A stretch of 64,000 nucleotides of DNA from Reichenbachiella sp. (GTDB taxonomy: Bacteria > Bacteroidota > Bacteroidia > Cytophagales > Cyclobacteriaceae): assembly GCF_033344935.1 (NCBI RefSeq), contig NZ_JAWPMM010000001.1:124001-188000 (forward strand), given 5' to 3'. Below, one piece after another: positions 25,980 to 61,259 of the stretch (position 1 is the first letter of the stretch; the number at the start of each line of letters is the position of its first letter). A model generated the notes under the pieces. That model had not been told where the DNA came from and searched no databases. It saw only the letters and a program-made list of their open reading frames with translations. The translations under genes were made by a program, and so were the position numbers.

Positions 25980-28612
25980 AAAATCAAGGTCAAAAAACTC
26001 AACAACCGCCTCAGCTCGCTACTCGCCTTTTCTTCTGGATGGCTGGATCAGCCGCTGTAGAAGATCTCTATGGAGATATGGAAGAAATATATTTTTCTAA
26101 TGTAGATAAGTATGGCAAGTCAAAAGCCAATCGAATGTTTTGGAAGCAAGTGCTTTCACTGGTTTTCTCGTATGCCCTAAAATCAAGAAAAGCTAATGCA
26201 GCTCACTCATACAGAGCCAGCAGCATCTCTCCAGCATTACTATACAACTTTTTTAAAGTCTCCATGCGTACCTTGATCAGGCATCGATCATTTTCTATAA
26301 TTAACATTCTAGGACTGTCCCTCGGTATGTCAATCTGTTTACTCAGTATCACCATGTACTACAGTATTCAGCAGTTTGATTTGTTTCATATAAACAAAGA
26401 TCGAATCTATACCGTCAACACATTGGTAATCAATAATCAAGTCAATGACAAGTTCGCTACAACAGCTCCTTACGTTCATGACAATTTGAAATCCTACACT
26501 AACCAAATAGAAGAAGTAGTCGCCATTAATGATGGATTCTCAGGAGAGGTCAAGATCAATCAAAATACACTGCCTGTTTCAGGGTTGTACGTACCACCGG
26601 CATTTCTAAAAATCTTCACTTTTCCACTGATGGCAGGTAATGAGTCCACTGCCCTTCAAGAACCATTCAGCATCATTCTAACTGAAAAAGCTGCATTGCG
26701 GCTGTTCGGGCATACCAACGTAATTGGAGATGCTATAGAACTAGAAAACAAGGGGACATTTCAAGTCACAGGTATAATGAAAGACTACCCGGGGGCTTCT
26801 CATTTGCAGTTCGAATCTCTAGTTTCCTACAGTACCCTGGATGCTATTGAACCTGGACTGAATAAGCGGTTTGAGGACTATCGTTTTTACACCAATAGTT
26901 ACACCTATCTTCTGCTCCAGAAAGGCAGTACTCCAGAACAGCTCAAAATCCCATTGGAACAAATTGCTCAGGAGTTGTCTAACCCGGACGAAACGCTTGA
27001 GTTGAACTTACAACCTGTCACTAATATTGCTGCCGGAGAAAACATCAACTACTCCATAGGGCCATCATTCGATCGACTAACCATGGCTTTTTTTATTCTA
27101 CTGACACTAATCATCCTGGCTCCTGCCTGTTTCAATTATGCCAATCTATCCATGGCAAGAGCATTGAAAAGATCCAAAGAAATAGGCATGAGAAAAGTAG
27201 TTGGTGGTGGGCGACGGGATATTTTTATTCAGTTCATATTTGAAACTTTCATCATTACCTCTATTGCCTTATTTGGCGCTATTTATATATTCACTATCAT
27301 TAGAGAAGAATATCTGGCGATGATCATAGGTGCCGAGATGCTTGATTTAAGTATAAACCTTCCGGTGATGGTCGCATTTGTTGGCTTTGCTGTTTTTACC
27401 AGTCTATTGGCGGGTGTAATACCTGCCACCTATTTTTCCAAAATGAGAGCTATCTCATCCTTAAGAGGAGGGGGCAAAGCCGGGGTTTTATTCAAATCAA
27501 AGCTCAGAAACGGACTAACAGTATTTCAATTTTGTCTTTCAACGTTTTTCATCTTTGGTGCTATTGCGATGATTTCACAGTATTATCATTCAATGAATTA
27601 CGACAAAGGATTCGATGAGAAGGGAAAAGTAATTATTCCTTTGCACAATATCGAACCTGAGATTATTGCACACGAATATTCGAATTTCCCCGAAGTATCT
27701 GAAATTGCCTTTTCTTCAGGAATTCCGGGCACCCATTCCAATAATGAGGTTTGGGTTCAAACTTACCAAGTCGAAGACTCGGTCGCGGTGCATCAAATGT
27801 TTGTTGACAATTCATTTCTCGAACTAATGGGATTCAAATTAATTCGGGGCCATTCATTCATTGAGAATCTTAATCAGGATAATGAAATACAAATTATTGT
27901 CAACAAAACCTTTGCTCAATCCATGGCATTAGCTGAAAATGAAATAATAGATAAAACATTCAGATTGCCTCATGGACTTACCGCTAGAGTTATTGGAGTG
28001 ATCGATGATTTCAATCATTTGCCGGTAATGAAACAAATTCAACCATTCTTTTTTAGATACGACCCTAGCAAATTCTCATTCGCCACATTAAAGGTGGATA
28101 CTCAGAATGTTTTTGAAACCGCAACGAAATTCGAACAAAAATGGGAAGCCTTGAATGACCTAATTCCCTACGAATTCACGTTTCTGGAAGATAAACTTAA
28201 TGCCATATATGATCAGCTGAAAAACCCAATTAAGATGTTCGGTTTTCTAAGTTTCTTGGCTGTAAGTATTGCGTGTCTTGGCTTGCTTGGAATGGTCGTC
28301 TTCACAATGGAAAACAAAGTGAAAGAAATTGGGATTCGCAAAGTAATGGGAGCATCCGTTCCTCAACTTACACGTCATCTATCTCAGGGTTTCCTAAAAC
28401 TGATGCTACTTGCATTGGTAATAACCATTCCTCTCGCCTATGCAGTTTATGAGTTTATGCTGCAGCGGATTATCTTTTATAACAAAACAATCGGATTGGT
28501 AGAAATTCTTTCAAGTATCCTAATTCTTTCTTTGCTCGGTTCTATCACGGTATTTTCGCAAACCATCAAATCAGCCAAACTCAATCCCGTTGACAATTTG
28601 CGATACGAATAA
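25976..28612 (+). CDS. FtsX-like ABC-type permease with N-terminal prefix domain
   Basis: 878 residues from the ATG at 25976, which overlaps the PadR stop. Residues 1-75 are the permease-prefix domain: LATRLFFWMAGSAAVEDLYGDMEEIY. A MacB-type periplasmic core follows the first membrane helix (RHRSFSIINILGLSLGMSICLLSI). The first FtsX three-helix block lies around residues 370-490, and the second core and FtsX block complete the C-terminal half. Conserved SKEIGMRKVVGGGRRDIF and VKEIGIRKVMGASVPQL loops are in both FtsX blocks. This is the layout of Bacteroidota ABC permeases for antimicrobial or lipoprotein export. No partner ATPase gene lies in the window; it may be supplied from elsewhere. A terminator follows. 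Confidence 0.88.
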   Translation: MKNQGQKTQQPPQLATRLFFWMAGSAAVEDLYGDMEEIYFSNVDKYGKSKANRMFWKQVLSLVFSYALKSRKANAAHSYRASSISPALLYNFFKVSMRTLIRHRSFSIINILGLSLGMSICLLSITMYYSIQQFDLFHINKDRIYTVNTLVINNQVNDKFATTAPYVHDNLKSYTNQIEEVVAINDGFSGEVKINQNTLPVSGLYVPPAFLKIFTFPLMAGNESTALQEPFSIILTEKAALRLFGHTNVIGDAIELENKGTFQVTGIMKDYPGASHLQFESLVSYSTLDAIEPGLNKRFEDYRFYTNSYTYLLLQKGSTPEQLKIPLEQIAQELSNPDETLELNLQPVTNIAAGENINYSIGPSFDRLTMAFFILLTLIILAPACFNYANLSMARALKRSKEIGMRKVVGGGRRDIFIQFIFETFIITSIALFGAIYIFTIIREEYLAMIIGAEMLDLSINLPVMVAFVGFAVFTSLLAGVIPATYFSKMRAISSLRGGGKAGVLFKSKLRNGLTVFQFCLSTFFIFGAIAMISQYYHSMNYDKGFDEKGKVIIPLHNIEPEIIAHEYSNFPEVSEIAFSSGIPGTHSNNEVWVQTYQVEDSVAVHQMFVDNSFLELMGFKLIRGHSFIENLNQDNEIQIIVNKTFAQSMALAENEIIDKTFRLPHGLTARVIGVIDDFNHLPVMKQIQPFFFRYDPSKFSFATLKVDTQNVFETATKFEQKWEALNDLIPYEFTFLEDKLNAIYDQLKNPIKMFGFLSFLAVSIACLGLLGMVVFTMENKVKEIGIRKVMGASVPQLTRHLSQGFLKLMLLALVITIPLAYAVYEFMLQRIIFYNKTIGLVEILSSILILSLLGSITVFSQTIKSAKLNPVDNLRYE

Positions 28613-56659: not shown

Positions 56660-57138
56660 AACTCATATTTTATTATTGTTGAAATCCTATCCTTGTTTAG
56701 CCGAAAGGATCTCTTCTTTTCGTGAAAACTAGCTTTAATAATGTTCGTTTGGCTTTCTATAGTTTCTAATAGAATGGTGTTCTCAACTTTTATTTCAGAG
56801 ATAATCTGATGCGGTATATCCAATTGAGCCTGAATGACTATGACATCTTCCAAAAAGGAGAACTCTCTATATTCAATTGATGCCTTGGTGCCATTGATTG
56901 CCAAGTTCATATTTTCATTCATGTATTGAGATAAAGCACAATTCCAATCCTCTTTGGTACGACCGACCTGCGTGCCTACAGCTTTGATCAAATTGGCTCT
57001 ATCCAATCTAATTTCCATGAAATAGGTCTGATCCTTTTCGAACAAATCGAACAGCCCAAAATTCAACTCATGAGCCATAGCGCTCCTTTGTAGGATAAGT
57101 AAGCCGAGCAGAAGGAATATTGATTTTTTCAATTTCAT
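56656..57138 (-). CDS. Secreted protein upstream of YHYH lipoprotein gene
   Basis: 160 residues. The signal peptide is MKLKKSIFLLLGLLILQRSAMA. The mature protein begins AHELNFGLFDLFEKDQTYFMEIRLDRANL, which resembles the first strands of small all-beta periplasmic proteins found next to HupE/UreJ or YHYH-type genes; but no family is certain. The gene overlaps the YHYH lipoprotein gene by four bases (stop at 56656, ATG 56659), so the pair is co-transcribed. Function unknown. Confidence 0.65.
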   Translation of the reverse strand: MKLKKSIFLLLGLLILQRSAMAHELNFGLFDLFEKDQTYFMEIRLDRANLIKAVGTQVGRTKEDWNCALSQYMNENMNLAINGTKASIEYREFSFLEDVIVIQAQLDIPHQIISEIKVENTILLETIESQTNIIKASFHEKKRSFRLNKDRISTIIKYEL

Positions 57139-57225
57139 AAGAGAAACTAATGCTTTAACAGGGATAGGACGAGGAGATAAGGTTAAACCCTACTTTAAGT
57201 ACTTCACTGATTTTCGGGGTGCAGT

Positions 57226-57241
57226 CATAAATGGATTTATG
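57226..57241. promoter_or_regulatory. Perfect palindrome upstream of the sulfite-reduction unit
   Basis: CATAAAT-GG-ATTTATG is a perfect 7-2-7 inverted repeat about 80 bases upstream of the -33 element of the sulfite reductase leader. The 464-base gap from 57139 to 57602 holds this site, the promoter, the leader peptide and attenuator. No other gene is seen there. The palindrome could be a repressor or activator site for the sulfur genes, but also an AT-rich accident. Confidence 0.3.
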
Positions 57242-57322
57242 CTTTCCGCAATAATTCTCACGTTCTGTTGTGATTTTGTTAAAATATTAACCCGCATGTT
57301 ATCTTTTTGCCAAAAACAGGCG

Positions 57323-57349
57323 TTGAAACAAATTTCCCTTCTATCTTTG
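57323..57349 (+). promoter_or_regulatory. Promoter of the sulfite reductase leader
   Basis: TTG at 57323-57325 and TATCTTTG at 57342-57349, 16 bases apart, match the Bacteroidota promoter (TTG/TTTG and TAnnTTTG). Transcription should begin around 57356, leaving about 45 bases before the leader peptide start at 57401 and about 250 bases before the reductase ATG. The length of this leader is what an attenuator requires. Confidence 0.55.
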
Positions 57350-57400
57350 AACCCTGAATTATTAAACTCCGTTGAAGGAATCACATCCTGAAAGGACGAA

Positions 57401-57520
57401 ATGAAGAAAACAACATTAAATAATATCTCAATAATGAACATCTGTTGGATGTGTTGTTGCTGTATGCTTTCATATAGCGGGAGATATACATTTAATGAAT
57501 TATTGAAGACGAGAAGTTAA
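57401..57520 (+). CDS. Cys-rich leader peptide (attenuation uORF) of the sulfite reductase operon
   Basis: A 39-residue frame from ATG at 57401 to TAA at 57518-57520, with AAGGA five bases upstream as a possible Shine-Dalgarno. Its middle reads NICWMCCCCML: Cys codons at 57443, 57452, 57455, 57458 and 57461, with Trp and two Met codons between and after them. Five Cys and two Met among eight codons, directly ahead of the sulfur-assimilation gene, is the sign of a leader peptide that senses cysteine supply through ribosome stalling. A second ATG at 57434 would give a 28-residue version with the same motif. The rest of the peptide shows no motif. It is too short for normal gene calling. Poly-Cys uORFs with this task are known in actinobacteria; I infer the same role here by analogy. 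Confidence 0.72.
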   Translation: MKKTTLNNISIMNICWMCCCCMLSYSGRYTFNELLKTRS

Positions 57521-57578
57521 TCAACATAACAATAAGACATTAAAAAGCCTCTCCCGAGAAATCAGGAGAGGCTTTTTT
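57423..57578 (+). promoter_or_regulatory. Transcription attenuator with alternating RNA helices
   Basis: Four segments form mutually exclusive pairs. Segment 1, ATATCTC (57423-57429), pairs with segment 2, GAGATAT (57481-57487), and encloses all Cys codons. Segment 2, in the register CGGGAGA (57478-57484), pairs with TCTCCCG (57550-57556) to make an antiterminator. Segment 3 (57542-57554) and segment 4 (57565-57577) make the terminator. Expected behaviour: with charged tRNA-Cys the ribosome passes, 1:2 reforms and the terminator stops transcription; with a shortage the ribosome stalls on the Cys run, segment 2 stays free and holds segment 3, and the reductase gene is read. Stability was judged by eye only. 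Confidence 0.6.
57542..57578 (+). terminator. Intrinsic terminator inside the sulfite reductase leader
   Basis: AAAAAGCCTCTCC (57542-57554) pairs with GGAGAGGCTTTTT (57565-57577) in a perfect 13-bp stem with a ten-base loop, ending in a run of T to 57578. It is 22 bases after the leader-peptide stop and 24 bases before the reductase ATG at 57603, so it can only act on transcripts heading into that gene. It is the off-state structure of the attenuator. Confidence 0.9.
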
Positions 57579-57602
57579 ATTGGACTAAAATCAGAATATA
57601 CC

Positions 57603-59726
57603 ATGCAAAGTTTTAGATCAGAACTTGAAAATCTAGACAACCCAGTCGTCCAAAAAGACATCATTGCCCTGGCTGACAAAATTCAAATTTTCCGCGAAGG
57701 AAAAATTGACCCGGACAAATTCCGAAGCCTCCGTTTGGCCCGTGGAGTGTACGGTCAGCGCCAGCCTGGTAATCAGATGGTGAGGATCAAAATACCATTC
57801 GGAAAAATGAGTGTGAAGCAACTGAAAAGAATTGCGGACATTTCCAATGAATTTGGCGGGGGCAATCTACATGCGACTACAAGACAAGATATTCAGATTC
57901 ACTATGTGAGCCTAGACCGTACGCCTGAGCTCTGGGCAAAGTTGGAGCAGGACGATATCACTTTGCGTGAAGCATGTGGAAACACATTAAGAAATGTAAC
58001 CGCTTCACCTGTAGCTGGCATCGACAAGGACGAGCCGTTTGATGTCTCGCCTTATGCACATGCTCTTTTCAAATACTTTTTGAGAAACCCTGTTTGTCAG
58101 GAAATGGGACGAAAGTTCAAAATCTCATTTTCATCAAGTGAAAAAGATACGGGTATCTCTTTCATTCACGACATTGGATTTATTCCAAAAGTGAAAAACG
58201 AAGGGGGTAAAGATATTAGAGGATTCAAAGTAATGATTGGTGGTGGTTTAGGCGCACAGCCCGTGCCTGCTCAAAAAGCTTACGACTTCTTGCCTGAAGA
58301 TCAAATGATCCCATTCGCAGAAGCCTTACTTAGAGTATTCGATCGCTATGGTGAAAGAAAAAGAAGAATGAAAGCTCGTTTCAAATTCTTGATTACTGAA
58401 ATCGGAATTGACGAGGTAATGCGATTGGTAGAGGAAGAAAGAAAAGCTTTGAGTACACAATCGTACGTAGTGAAGAATCTTTTGGGGCAACCCAAACTTC
58501 CAGAGAAGTTGGTCTTTTCGGACAAATCCATCAACGATCAGGAAAAATACGAAGCCTGGAGAGCTACCAACGTTTGGGAGCAAAAGCAGGAAGGATTCTT
58601 TGCGGTTTCCATCAAATTGCCAAACGGCGATATGAACTGGAAAAAAGCGCATGCCTTTGGTGATGTGGTTTTGAAGTATGCCGCGGATGACATTCGTGTA
58701 ACTGTAAACCAAGGCTACATCCTACGATTTGTAAAAGAAGAAAGCCTGAAGTCGCTTTATGCGGAATTGGAAGCTTTGAACATGGCTGATCCTGGGTTCA
58801 ACAGTACCGCAGATATCATCGCTTGTGCTGGTACTGATACTTGTAACTTGGGTATTTCAAATAGTACTAGAGTTGCACTTGAATTAGAAAATGTAATCGA
58901 AAAGGAATATCCAGAGTTGATCAAGAACAATGACCTCCACATCAAAATCAGTGGATGTCCTAACTCTTGTGGTCAACATGCCATCGCTTCGATTGGATTT
59001 CATGGCTCTTCATTAAGAAACAAGGTGAATAAGAAAACCATCCCTGCTGTACAAGTTTTGCTTGGTGGTGGATTAGGTAGCAATGGCGACGGTTTCATCG
59101 CAGAGAAAGTAATCAAGGTACCTAGCAAGCGTACACCGGATGTACTTCGTGTGTTGTTCAACGACTACGAGGAAAATGGCAACGAAGGCGAGTACTATTA
59201 CGACTACTTCAGAAGACAAGGCAAAGATTACTTCTATCAATTGTTGAAGTTCTTGGCTGACCTAGAAACGCTCAAGCCTACCGATTATATCGATTGGGGT
59301 AAAGAAGAGCAATTTGAAGTAGAGACAGAAGTAGGAGAATGTGCGGGTGTAATTATTGACTTGTTCTCTACTCTGATGCACGATGCGGAAGAAAAATTTG
59401 TGTGGGCTCAAGAAGCCTTCGAAGGTGGAAGCATCGCTGATTCTATTTACCATACGTACAATGTATTTATCAATGCAGCCAAAGCGTTGTTGATCGACAA
59501 AGGCATCACGGTAAATAATCAGGTGAGTGTTATGAATTCGTTTGAAGAAGAATTTGGGCAGGACTTTAAGAGCCTTACAGGTGGTACTTTCAAAGATTTC
59601 GTTTTGAAAATCAATCAAAACGAACCTACGGAAGCATTCGCTACGGCTTATAGAGAAGACGCTGCTAAATTCTTAGAAAGAGTAAAAGAAGTTCAAAAAG
59701 ATCTGTTGGTGGAAGAGCCAGCTTGA
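57603..59726 (+). CDS. Siroheme-dependent sulfite/nitrite reductase with C-terminal HEPN-like extension
   Basis: 707 residues. Assimilatory reduction of sulfite to sulfide (or nitrite to ammonia) using siroheme and a [4Fe-4S] cluster. The cluster ligands are Cys408 and Cys414 (CAGTDTC), and Cys452 and Cys456 (ISGCPNSC), in the usual C-x5-C, x37, C-x3-C order. Two ferredoxin-like half domains are at residues 45-110 and 320-385, with the Arg-rich QDIQIH and KSYNQGY-like sites. Residues 570-707 are an added helical domain (ECAGVIIDLFSTLMHDAEEKF) similar to HEPN-type extensions. The adjacent siroheme genes and the Cys-leader favour sulfite as the substrate. The symbol is left empty because CysI and NirA-like enzymes cannot be told apart by motif only. 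Confidence 0.9.
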   Translation: MQSFRSELENLDNPVVQKDIIALADKIQIFREGKIDPDKFRSLRLARGVYGQRQPGNQMVRIKIPFGKMSVKQLKRIADISNEFGGGNLHATTRQDIQIHYVSLDRTPELWAKLEQDDITLREACGNTLRNVTASPVAGIDKDEPFDVSPYAHALFKYFLRNPVCQEMGRKFKISFSSSEKDTGISFIHDIGFIPKVKNEGGKDIRGFKVMIGGGLGAQPVPAQKAYDFLPEDQMIPFAEALLRVFDRYGERKRRMKARFKFLITEIGIDEVMRLVEEERKALSTQSYVVKNLLGQPKLPEKLVFSDKSINDQEKYEAWRATNVWEQKQEGFFAVSIKLPNGDMNWKKAHAFGDVVLKYAADDIRVTVNQGYILRFVKEESLKSLYAELEALNMADPGFNSTADIIACAGTDTCNLGISNSTRVALELENVIEKEYPELIKNNDLHIKISGCPNSCGQHAIASIGFHGSSLRNKVNKKTIPAVQVLLGGGLGSNGDGFIAEKVIKVPSKRTPDVLRVLFNDYEENGNEGEYYYDYFRRQGKDYFYQLLKFLADLETLKPTDYIDWGKEEQFEVETEVGECAGVIIDLFSTLMHDAEEKFVWAQEAFEGGSIADSIYHTYNVFINAAKALLIDKGITVNNQVSVMNSFEEEFGQDFKSLTGGTFKDFVLKINQNEPTEAFATAYREDAAKFLERVKEVQKDLLVEEPA

Positions 59727-59885: not shown

Positions 59886-60656
59886 ATGAAAAATCTAAAA
59901 GCTCCTAAATTAACCTTGGTGGGTGCAGGTCCGGGCGATCCGGATTTGATCACCCTCAAAGGCATCAAAGCTTTGAAAGCAGCCGACGTAGTATTGTACG
60001 ACGCCTTGGCCAACGAAGAGCTTTTAGATTTTTGTTCAGCAGATACCAAAAAGGTATTTGTAGGTAAGCGAGCTGGTCTGCACCACTACCAACAGCATGT
60101 CATCAATCAGATGATTGTAGATCATGCCATAAAATATGGTCACGTAGTGAGACTGAAAGGTGGTGATCCTTATGTGTTTGGTAGAGGACACGAGGAGTTA
60201 GAATACGCTGAGAAGCATGGATTAGTAGTCGATTTGGTACCGGGCGTGACCAGCGCTATTTCCGTACCTGCATTGAATCAAATTCCATTAACCAGAAGAG
60301 GTATCAACGAAAGCTTTTGGGTAATGACGGGTACCACGAGAAGTGGTCAGTTATCCTCAGACATTGAGCATGCAGCTAAATCAAGCGCCACCAGCGTCAT
60401 CCTGATGGGCGTAAAAAAACTGCCAGAGATTCTAGCTATTTATTCGGCTAGCGGCAAGAGTGAAACACCAGCAGCTATCATACAAAATGGCTCTAGACCT
60501 GATGAGAAAATTGTGATTGGAAATGTCAGCAACCTACAAGAGTTGGCATTAAAAAATAATATCGGCTCTCCGGCTATTATAGTCATCGGAGAAACTGTAG
60601 CTTTAGGTAAAGAAAAACTAAACAGCACCCTGGATAAAATAGTTTTATCCAAATAA
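59886..60656 (+). CDS. cobA: Uroporphyrinogen-III C-methyltransferase
   Basis: 256 residues. It adds two methyl groups from SAM to uroporphyrinogen III, giving precorrin-2 for siroheme. Family motifs are LVGAGPGDPDLITLKGIKAL, VVLYDALANEELL, VGKRAGLHHYQQ, VRLKGGDPYVFGRGHEEL and VPGVTSAISVPAL. The length corresponds to the C-terminal half of CysG or a free-standing CobA/SUMT. The precorrin-2 dehydrogenase gene follows, 12 bases downstream. Together they provide siroheme for the upstream reductase. Confidence 0.95.
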   Translation: MKNLKAPKLTLVGAGPGDPDLITLKGIKALKAADVVLYDALANEELLDFCSADTKKVFVGKRAGLHHYQQHVINQMIVDHAIKYGHVVRLKGGDPYVFGRGHEELEYAEKHGLVVDLVPGVTSAISVPALNQIPLTRRGINESFWVMTGTTRSGQLSSDIEHAAKSSATSVILMGVKKLPEILAIYSASGKSETPAAIIQNGSRPDEKIVIGNVSNLQELALKNNIGSPAIIVIGETVALGKEKLNSTLDKIVLSK

Positions 60657-60668
60657 ACACCCAAAACC

Positions 60669-61259
60669 ATGAAATCGCTCAAAAACGGTAATAATCTATT
60701 CCCAGTTTTCTTCAAACTGGAGCAATTGCAGCTACTTATTGTTGGCGGTGGTCACGTGGGATTAGAAAAACTCACTGCTGTACTGACCAACAGTCCCGCA
60801 ACCAACATCAAATTGGTAGCCAAAGAAATCAGTGAAGAGGTTCGTGAATTTGTAAAAGATCACCCCAATGTAAAACTGATCGAAAGAGAGTTCAGACCTT
60901 ATGATCTCGAAGAGATCGAATTGGTGATTGTAGGGATCGACGACACGCGAACCAGCGAATTGATCAGAGACATGGCCAAAGTACGTGGCCTCTTAGTGAA
61001 CGTAGCAGACAAACCGGAGCTATGTGACTTCTACTTAGGATCTGTGGTGAAAAAAGGAGACTTGAAAATCGCCATCTCTACGAATGGCAAATCACCTACT
61101 GTAGCCAAGCGTATCAAAGAATATTTAAACGAATCCATCCCGGAATCGATCGACGAAGTGCTCCAAAACATGAGCAAAATCCGCGAAAAACTTCACGGCA
61201 ACTTCGACTTCAAAGTACGCACGCTGAATAGCATTACCAAGGATTGGTTGAAGAAGTAG
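60669..61259 (+). CDS. Precorrin-2 dehydrogenase / sirohydrochlorin ferrochelatase
   Basis: 196 residues similar to the N-terminal part of CysG (Met8p-like). The NAD-binding motif is LLIVGGGHVGLEKLTAVL; VIVGIDDTRTSELIRDMAK and VNVADKPELCDFYLGSVVKKGDL are the conserved core, and AISTNGKSPTVAKRIKEYL the last one. It oxidises precorrin-2 to sirohydrochlorin and probably inserts Fe to give siroheme. The last 17 codons are repeated, in altered form, at 61853-61902 on the far side of the toxin-antitoxin pair. End of the sulfite/siroheme set. Confidence 0.92.
   Translation: MKSLKNGNNLFPVFFKLEQLQLLIVGGGHVGLEKLTAVLTNSPATNIKLVAKEISEEVREFVKDHPNVKLIEREFRPYDLEEIELVIVGIDDTRTSELIRDMAKVRGLLVNVADKPELCDFYLGSVVKKGDLKIAISTNGKSPTVAKRIKEYLNESIPESIDEVLQNMSKIREKLHGNFDFKVRTLNSITKDWLKK
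61207..61256 (+). repeat. Direct repeat copy 1: 3' end of the siroheme gene
   Basis: The last 50 bases before the stop of the precorrin-2 dehydrogenase gene match 61853-61902 with six differences (about 88 per cent). Both copies read FKVR-x-LNS-x-x-KDWLKK in frame. They bracket the toxin-antitoxin pair. Confidence 0.7.

Follow-up and report, generated by a model that had tools for sequence, protein, structure and literature searches.

Does the short, cysteine-rich open reading frame (ORF) that precedes a sulfite reductase (SiR) gene in Reichenbachiella sp. serve to read the cysteine supply of the cell? The ORF lies in a 64,000-nucleotide stretch of contig NZ_JAWPMM010000001.1; this whole stretch is referred to here as the window. 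An earlier, sequence-only reading of this DNA had described the frame with its Cys-rich core and had set it directly ahead of the gene that makes sulfide. The coordinates and the peptide were confirmed, and the downstream gene was identified as SiR by its NIR_SIR domains. Two siroheme genes stand downstream of SiR (Table 1).

Table 1. Features of the SiR leader and of the genes that follow it, in window coordinates
Feature	Position	Strand	Remarks
Promoter -7 box TATCTTTG	57342-57349	+	Bacteroidota TAnnTTTG type; TANNTTTGAACCC matched here and in L001-L008
Leader peptide ORF	57401-57520	+	39 codons and stop; MKKTTLNNISIMNICWMCCCCMLSYSGRYTFNELLKTRS; core NICWMCCCCML
Segment 1 (anti-antiterminator)	57413-57429	+	Upstream of the Cys codons; partner of segment 2
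Control codons	57443-57463	+	Cys15 (57443-57445), Trp16, Met17, Cys18-21 (57452-57463)
Segment 2	57478-57497	+	Pairs with segment 1 or segment 3
Segment 3	57530-57556	+	Includes terminator 5' arm; partner of either segment 2 (antiterminator) or the terminator 3' arm
Intrinsic terminator	Stem 57542-57577; T run 57573-57578	+	Between leader ORF and SiR
Sulfite reductase (SiR)	57603-59726	+	NIR_SIR domains; 707 aa
Uroporphyrinogen-III C-methyltransferase	59886-60656	+	Siroheme synthesis; above TIGR01469 curated cut-off
Siroheme synthase N-terminal-type dehydrogenase	60669-61259	+	Above TIGR01470 curated cut-off

The leader ORF holds five Cys codons, with 18 codons from the last Cys to the stop. 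Among the 706 ATG ORFs of 10-60 codons in the window, four consecutive Cys residues were found in the leader ORF only, and at least three Cys within six residues in five ORFs. In the genome of the strain, the TGYTGYTGYTGY run had 56 matches, 23 of which fall inside one tandem repeat. These 23 (G000:C1:4332908-4339310) recur with a spacing of 291 bases, the mark of a long tandem repeat, and are unrelated to leaders. When 30 of the 56 matches were inspected as loci, an ORF followed by a terminator that the scan accepted was found at the SiR leader only. Since the TGYTGYTGYTGY run by itself is not rare, the case against chance is comparative. A search of the 64-kb window, on both strands, for the regulatory RNAs of Rfam (SAM riboswitches, T-box and the rest) gave no matches at gathering score.

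The sequence-only reading had also placed the leader behind a promoter. A scan of 57100-57700 for sigma-70 promoters gave two sites, both on the minus strand, with 2.3 expected, and the TAnnTTTG box was used instead. This box, at -12 to -5, is described for the main sigma factor of Flavobacterium psychrophilum (PMC9723704). A box of this type stands upstream of the leader, and TANNTTTGAACCC is kept at the same place in all eight Reichenbachiella genomes, which bears out the earlier placement. The sole other TANNTTTGAACCC match in the window is at 27753-27765 (-). From the position of the box, transcription is predicted to start near 57354, leaving an untranslated lead of 47 nt before the ATG; the ORF is thus predicted not to be leaderless.

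The terminator between the ORF and SiR, on which the earlier reading was silent, folds at -22.5 kcal/mol, as against a shuffle mean of -7.9 kcal/mol. Its inverted repeat is listed by our own plus-strand scan, and by another scan on the minus strand only, because the loop exceeds the plus-strand limit of that scan. The whole leader (57395-57602) folds at -51.4 kcal/mol (z -5.1), and segment 2 takes part in two competing pairings. In the window, its pairing with segment 1 has an energy of -14.2 kcal/mol (p 0.015 against shuffled segment 1). The pairing of segment 2 with segment 3, through the helix CGGGAGA x UCUCCCG, is marginal with the arm and loop (p 0.06) and gave p 0.36 with the arm alone. 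When folding began just past a ribosome placed on the last Cys codon and ended at the terminator loop, the antiterminator was obtained, with its helix extended by UUUAAUG x CAUUAAA. When the 3' arm was included, the terminator had the lowest energy, also with a stalled ribosome upstream, and the switch must therefore be kinetic. If pairing across the ribosome was allowed, the upstream pairing of segment 3 in the window differed little between a stalled ribosome (0.63) and one at the stop (0.60).

The window leader is best explained by classical, ribosome-mediated attenuation of transcription, in which a translating ribosome would gauge how much Cys-tRNA is available. We give this reading a probability of roughly 0.87. 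We infer that the ORF is translated. With ample cysteine, the leading ribosome would clear the Cys codons and reach the stop; segment 2 would be covered, or paired with segment 1, the terminator would form and transcription would halt before SiR. With charged tRNA-Cys scarce, the ribosome would stall in the Cys run and hold segment 1 away, and segment 2 would pair with segment 3, and hence with the 5' arm of the terminator, before the 3' arm is made. Once this antiterminator had formed, RNA polymerase would enter SiR and, if these belong to one operon, the siroheme genes. Expression would in this way be induced by cysteine shortage.

SiR was present in 63 of the 98 relatives examined, including all eight Reichenbachiella genomes, and in each of these eight a Cys-clustered ORF and a terminator stand at the same place. 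The Cys runs read CWMCCCC in two genomes, FRMCCCC in one (the near relative G002), CCQSCCCC in one, CCQPCCCC in three and CLRACCWS, a weaker run, in one (G006). The sequence-only reading had let its case depend on whether near relatives keep the Cys run in the same position; all eight genomes of the genus do, G006 in the weaker form. Folding of segments 2 and 3 together with the RNA between them predicted a similar antiterminator hairpin in all eight, and RNAalifold, applied to these eight antiterminators, gave consistent pairs and no double changes.

Across Bacteroidota, 216 SiR upstream regions were surveyed, a set of 136 and a further 80 from named records. The loci are a selection from the matches: the searches matched 205 of 295 and 74 of 296 genomes, and 80 were kept of 582. 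A terminator was found within 330 nt in 81 of the 136 regions, and in 62 of these 81 it is preceded by an ATG ORF with at least three Cys in six residues, compared with 1.1 in shuffles. The same count of clusters gave 14 regions for Met (1.1 in shuffles), 13 for Thr (3.1), 9 for Ala (1.1) and 5 for Gly (0.7), and the remaining fifteen amino acids were nearer expectation. It is by comparison, here and in the eight genus genomes, that the earlier claim of a Cys run unlikely by chance holds; it does not hold for the run itself, which is not rare in the genome.

An ORF with a terminator was scored at 87 of the 216 loci (77 single, 10 double), and at none of the 216 when the opposite strand of the same regions was scanned. 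With seven duplicates removed, the count was 82 of 209. One of the 87 (L212, with its leader at -1938) is probably a chance match, and known carriers without a scored terminator, for example L230 and L241, were left out of the 87. In the set of 136, the carriers belong to 32 of 70 genera and 15 of 27 families; named carriers include Pedobacter miscanthi (L236), P. fastidiosus (L244), Mucilaginibacter hurinus (L225, with a GTG start) and R. agariperforans. The majority of loci (127 of 209) had no leader with terminator by the scan, and at 26 of these 127 another gene ends at most 120 nt upstream of SiR, compared with 3 of the 82 loci with a leader. The recurrence of this arrangement across many related genera makes a role in cysteine-dependent control of sulfide probable; through the leader, the cell probably makes sulfide only when cysteine is short. 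The conservation in the genus and beyond it also supports the earlier proposal that the leader senses cysteine supply on behalf of the sulfide gene.

The competing pairings were compared in one leader per genus from 30 genera; the genera are related, so the trials are not independent. Segment 2 paired with segment 3 better than did shuffled segment 2 (p<=0.05) in 18 of the 30 genera, and segment 1 with segment 2 better than did shuffled segment 1 (p<=0.05) in 8 of 30. The p-values are far from uniform (KS p 3e-15 for segments 2 x 3 and 7e-9 for segments 1 x 2). Many terminators have arms that resemble each other, so that an arm taken from another genus often pairs almost as well as the own arm, which was better at p<=0.1 in 9 of 30. 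In footprint folding with pairing across the ribosome allowed, the upstream pairing of segment 3 averaged 0.72 with no ribosome, 0.74 with a ribosome on the Cys codons and 0.52 with one at the stop; the stalled value exceeded the stop value in 25 of 30 genera, a modest effect. When pairing was confined to the RNA ahead of the ribosome, the values were 0.76 for the stalled ribosome and 0.16 for the stop, a difference seen in 30 of 30 genera that is partly true by construction. In this ahead-of-ribosome folding, the difference in segment 3 pairing between no ribosome and a stalled one was not significant.

Could the Cys codons have another meaning? That they are a chance run in a non-coding leader is hardly credible: TGY runs do occur in any frame, as counted above for the genome, but position, strand, gene specificity and constraint on the reading frame all speak against chance. 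In 20 leaders of eight genera the peptide R[CR]ACW[FYH]WCC is kept, with 27, 12 and 84 pairwise differences (each of 252) at codon positions 1, 2 and 3, so that the changes are mostly synonymous. The first Arg of these leaders is written with six codons and the Ala with four, both Trp are invariant, and the last two Cys are encoded by TGT in 20/20 and 19/20 leaders. The exact codon pattern of CWFWCC was found in 7 of 395 genomes in a phylum-wide search. A peptide conserved in one lineage could instead be a functional Cys-rich small protein ahead of SiR, engaged in metal or redox binding, and Cys clusters can bind metals. We hold this to be very improbable, as the window peptide had no NCBIfam match at E up to 1 and the leader peptides, 18-54 aa in length, are free to vary between genera outside the Cys run, whereas position and terminator are kept.

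The R[CR]ACW[FYH]WCC leaders also bear on the view that the nascent peptide, besides codon hunger, stalls the ribosome and senses cysteine, another thiol or a sulfur signal directly, in the manner of TnaC. The two invariant Trp sites argue for selection, and both Met and Trp are enriched within the Cys cluster and beside it: in a count of one leader from each genus, Met accounts for 39 of 181 non-Cys residues there versus 32 of 687 elsewhere, and Trp for 18 of 181 versus 6 of 687. However, part of the Trp excess may be mutational, because TGG is one base from the Cys codons TGY; moreover, most leaders have only the Cys run in common, and even the near relative G002 has FRMCCCC where the window has CWMCCCC. 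We regard such sensing by the peptide as improbable, and only marginally less so the view that the ORF acts on SiR via translation or Rho-dependent termination, as considered for mycobacteria, with the hairpin being incidental. Cys-run ORFs without a scored terminator do exist (for example L109, L127, L151 and L163), and mycobacterial Cys leaders are described as lacking conserved terminators (PMC1262725). Against this stand the strong hairpin and T run right behind the ORF in all eight genus genomes and the complementarity of the terminator 5' arm to the segment after the Cys run. Attenuation by a ribosome short of Cys-tRNA is the reading that we prefer.

Ten SiR loci carry two complete ORF-terminator units in series (L093, L097, L100, L102, L103, L106, L112, L116, L135 and L281). 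They represent nine genomes, L281 being a repeat of L116 that the duplicate filter missed. Several of them have mixed Met/Cys runs, such as PMMCCMMC followed by MCMCCMM. The order in L103 is MNNNFTYTLTTSNSPMMCCMMCA, terminator, MTIFNFQFLIFNLTMCMCCMMYLRMRKATILHYCKR, terminator and SiR; in L102, the pair of units precedes an aldo/keto reductase gene that is itself upstream of SiR. In G759, G723 and G854 (L302, L303 and L308), metX is the next gene upstream of SiR, in the same orientation, and the tandem leaders sit between the two. As RNA polymerase must pass both units, two attenuators would together act as a serial gate. It is conceivable, although we lean against it, that the leaders are more than counters of Cys-tRNA, with a serial Met and Cys gate on sulfide and, in the R[CR]ACW[FYH]WCC lineage, a nascent peptide whose two invariant Trp aid stalling. 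The arrangement in series recalls mgtCBR of Salmonella, a virulence and Mg transport operon with other signals and without Cys or Met codon runs. There, tandem attenuators with two short ORFs in one leader act on transcription (PMC3641672), as the series units would.

The earlier reading had suggested looking upstream of other sulfur genes. In the genome of the strain, a second Cys leader, MMACCCCCAPNWCLWESL, stands upstream of a CysM-type synthase gene. The operon (L322; G000:C1:3029500-3034400, outside the window) encodes this synthase, a JAB protease, a ThiS/SAMP1-like carrier ending in GGIQ and a ThiF-rhodanese protein. It resembles a carrier-protein cysteine pathway, and we take its gene set to be similar to CysM-Mec-CysO of mycobacteria. 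A Cys leader was found at 14 of 16 orthologous CysM-type loci (at least 57% identity), with a terminator called by the scan at 10 of the 16. At three Reichenbachiella CysM loci the terminator is imperfect: it was recognized by eye in L175 and L177, and one that was folded gave -18.1 kcal/mol. That of the own-genome cysM leader (L055/L056) is imperfect and was missed by the scan. No Cys leader was found at the 14 paralogous cysK-like loci examined. An ORF with terminator, scored at 87/216 SiR loci, was found neither at the cysC/cysD operon (0/8 genus genomes) nor at metX in genomes with SiR leaders (0/13; L313 has one ORF without a terminator). Three of the eight genus genomes (L287, L288 and L290) have weak Cys ORFs, ESTTLCC or ESTTCCC, ahead of cysC/cysD, with no scored terminator.

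Cysteine-codon leaders are known in mycobacteria and Rhodobacterales; what appears to be new here is a Bacteroidota form, at SiR and CysM loci and with a terminator. The uORFC-8-2 motif, upstream of cysS in Rhodobacterales, combines tandem Cys codons in a short ORF with RNA stems and, at its 3' end, an intrinsic terminator; ribosome-mediated attenuation was proposed for it (PMC8632094). As described there, it belongs to alphaproteobacteria and controls cysteinyl-tRNA synthetase, and its two Cys codons usually occupy positions 14 and 15. The Bacteroidota leaders differ in having four to seven Cys, in preceding SiR or CysM operons (SiR, not cysS, in the window) and in forming, at some loci, two units in series. 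The sequence-only reading had drawn its analogy with the polycysteine upstream ORFs of mycobacteria, and in principle this stands: Mycobacterium and related Actinobacteria carry, ahead of cysteine genes, short ORFs that contain runs of Cys codons, with no conserved terminator hairpin reported (PMC1262725), and the leaderless polycysteine ORFs of mycobacteria are cited as cysteine-responsive attenuators (Canestrari 2020). The mechanism indicated for the window leader is different. The mycobacterial ORFs, in these accounts, are leaderless, with the Cys run near the stop. In the window leader the predicted untranslated lead is 47 nt long and the Cys run is internal, and the intrinsic terminator faces a competing antiterminator. 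Within the phylum, attenuation by leader peptides was suggested upstream of amino-acid biosynthesis operons of F. psychrophilum; the passages on these attenuators name no cysteine leader, and 'sulfite' is absent from the main text (PMC9723704). In agreement with the earlier reading, which knew of no equivalent in this phylum, our literature searches found no cysteine leader for Bacteroidota, although the survey by Lopatovskaya and others (2010) might cover some.

With leaders of this kind, Bacteroidota would have a cysteine sensor that is widespread and independent of any protein regulator. It would sit at the step that makes sulfide, formed by SiR and the siroheme genes, and at the CysM-type operon with its carrier-protein genes. 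Classical attenuation needs a ribosome close behind RNA polymerase, which would make the leaders natural reporters of how far transcription and translation are coupled in this phylum, where translation initiation is described as not resting on Shine-Dalgarno sequences (PMC9723704). Attenuators in series, with Met and Cys codons, would make a natural logic gate that is directly testable.
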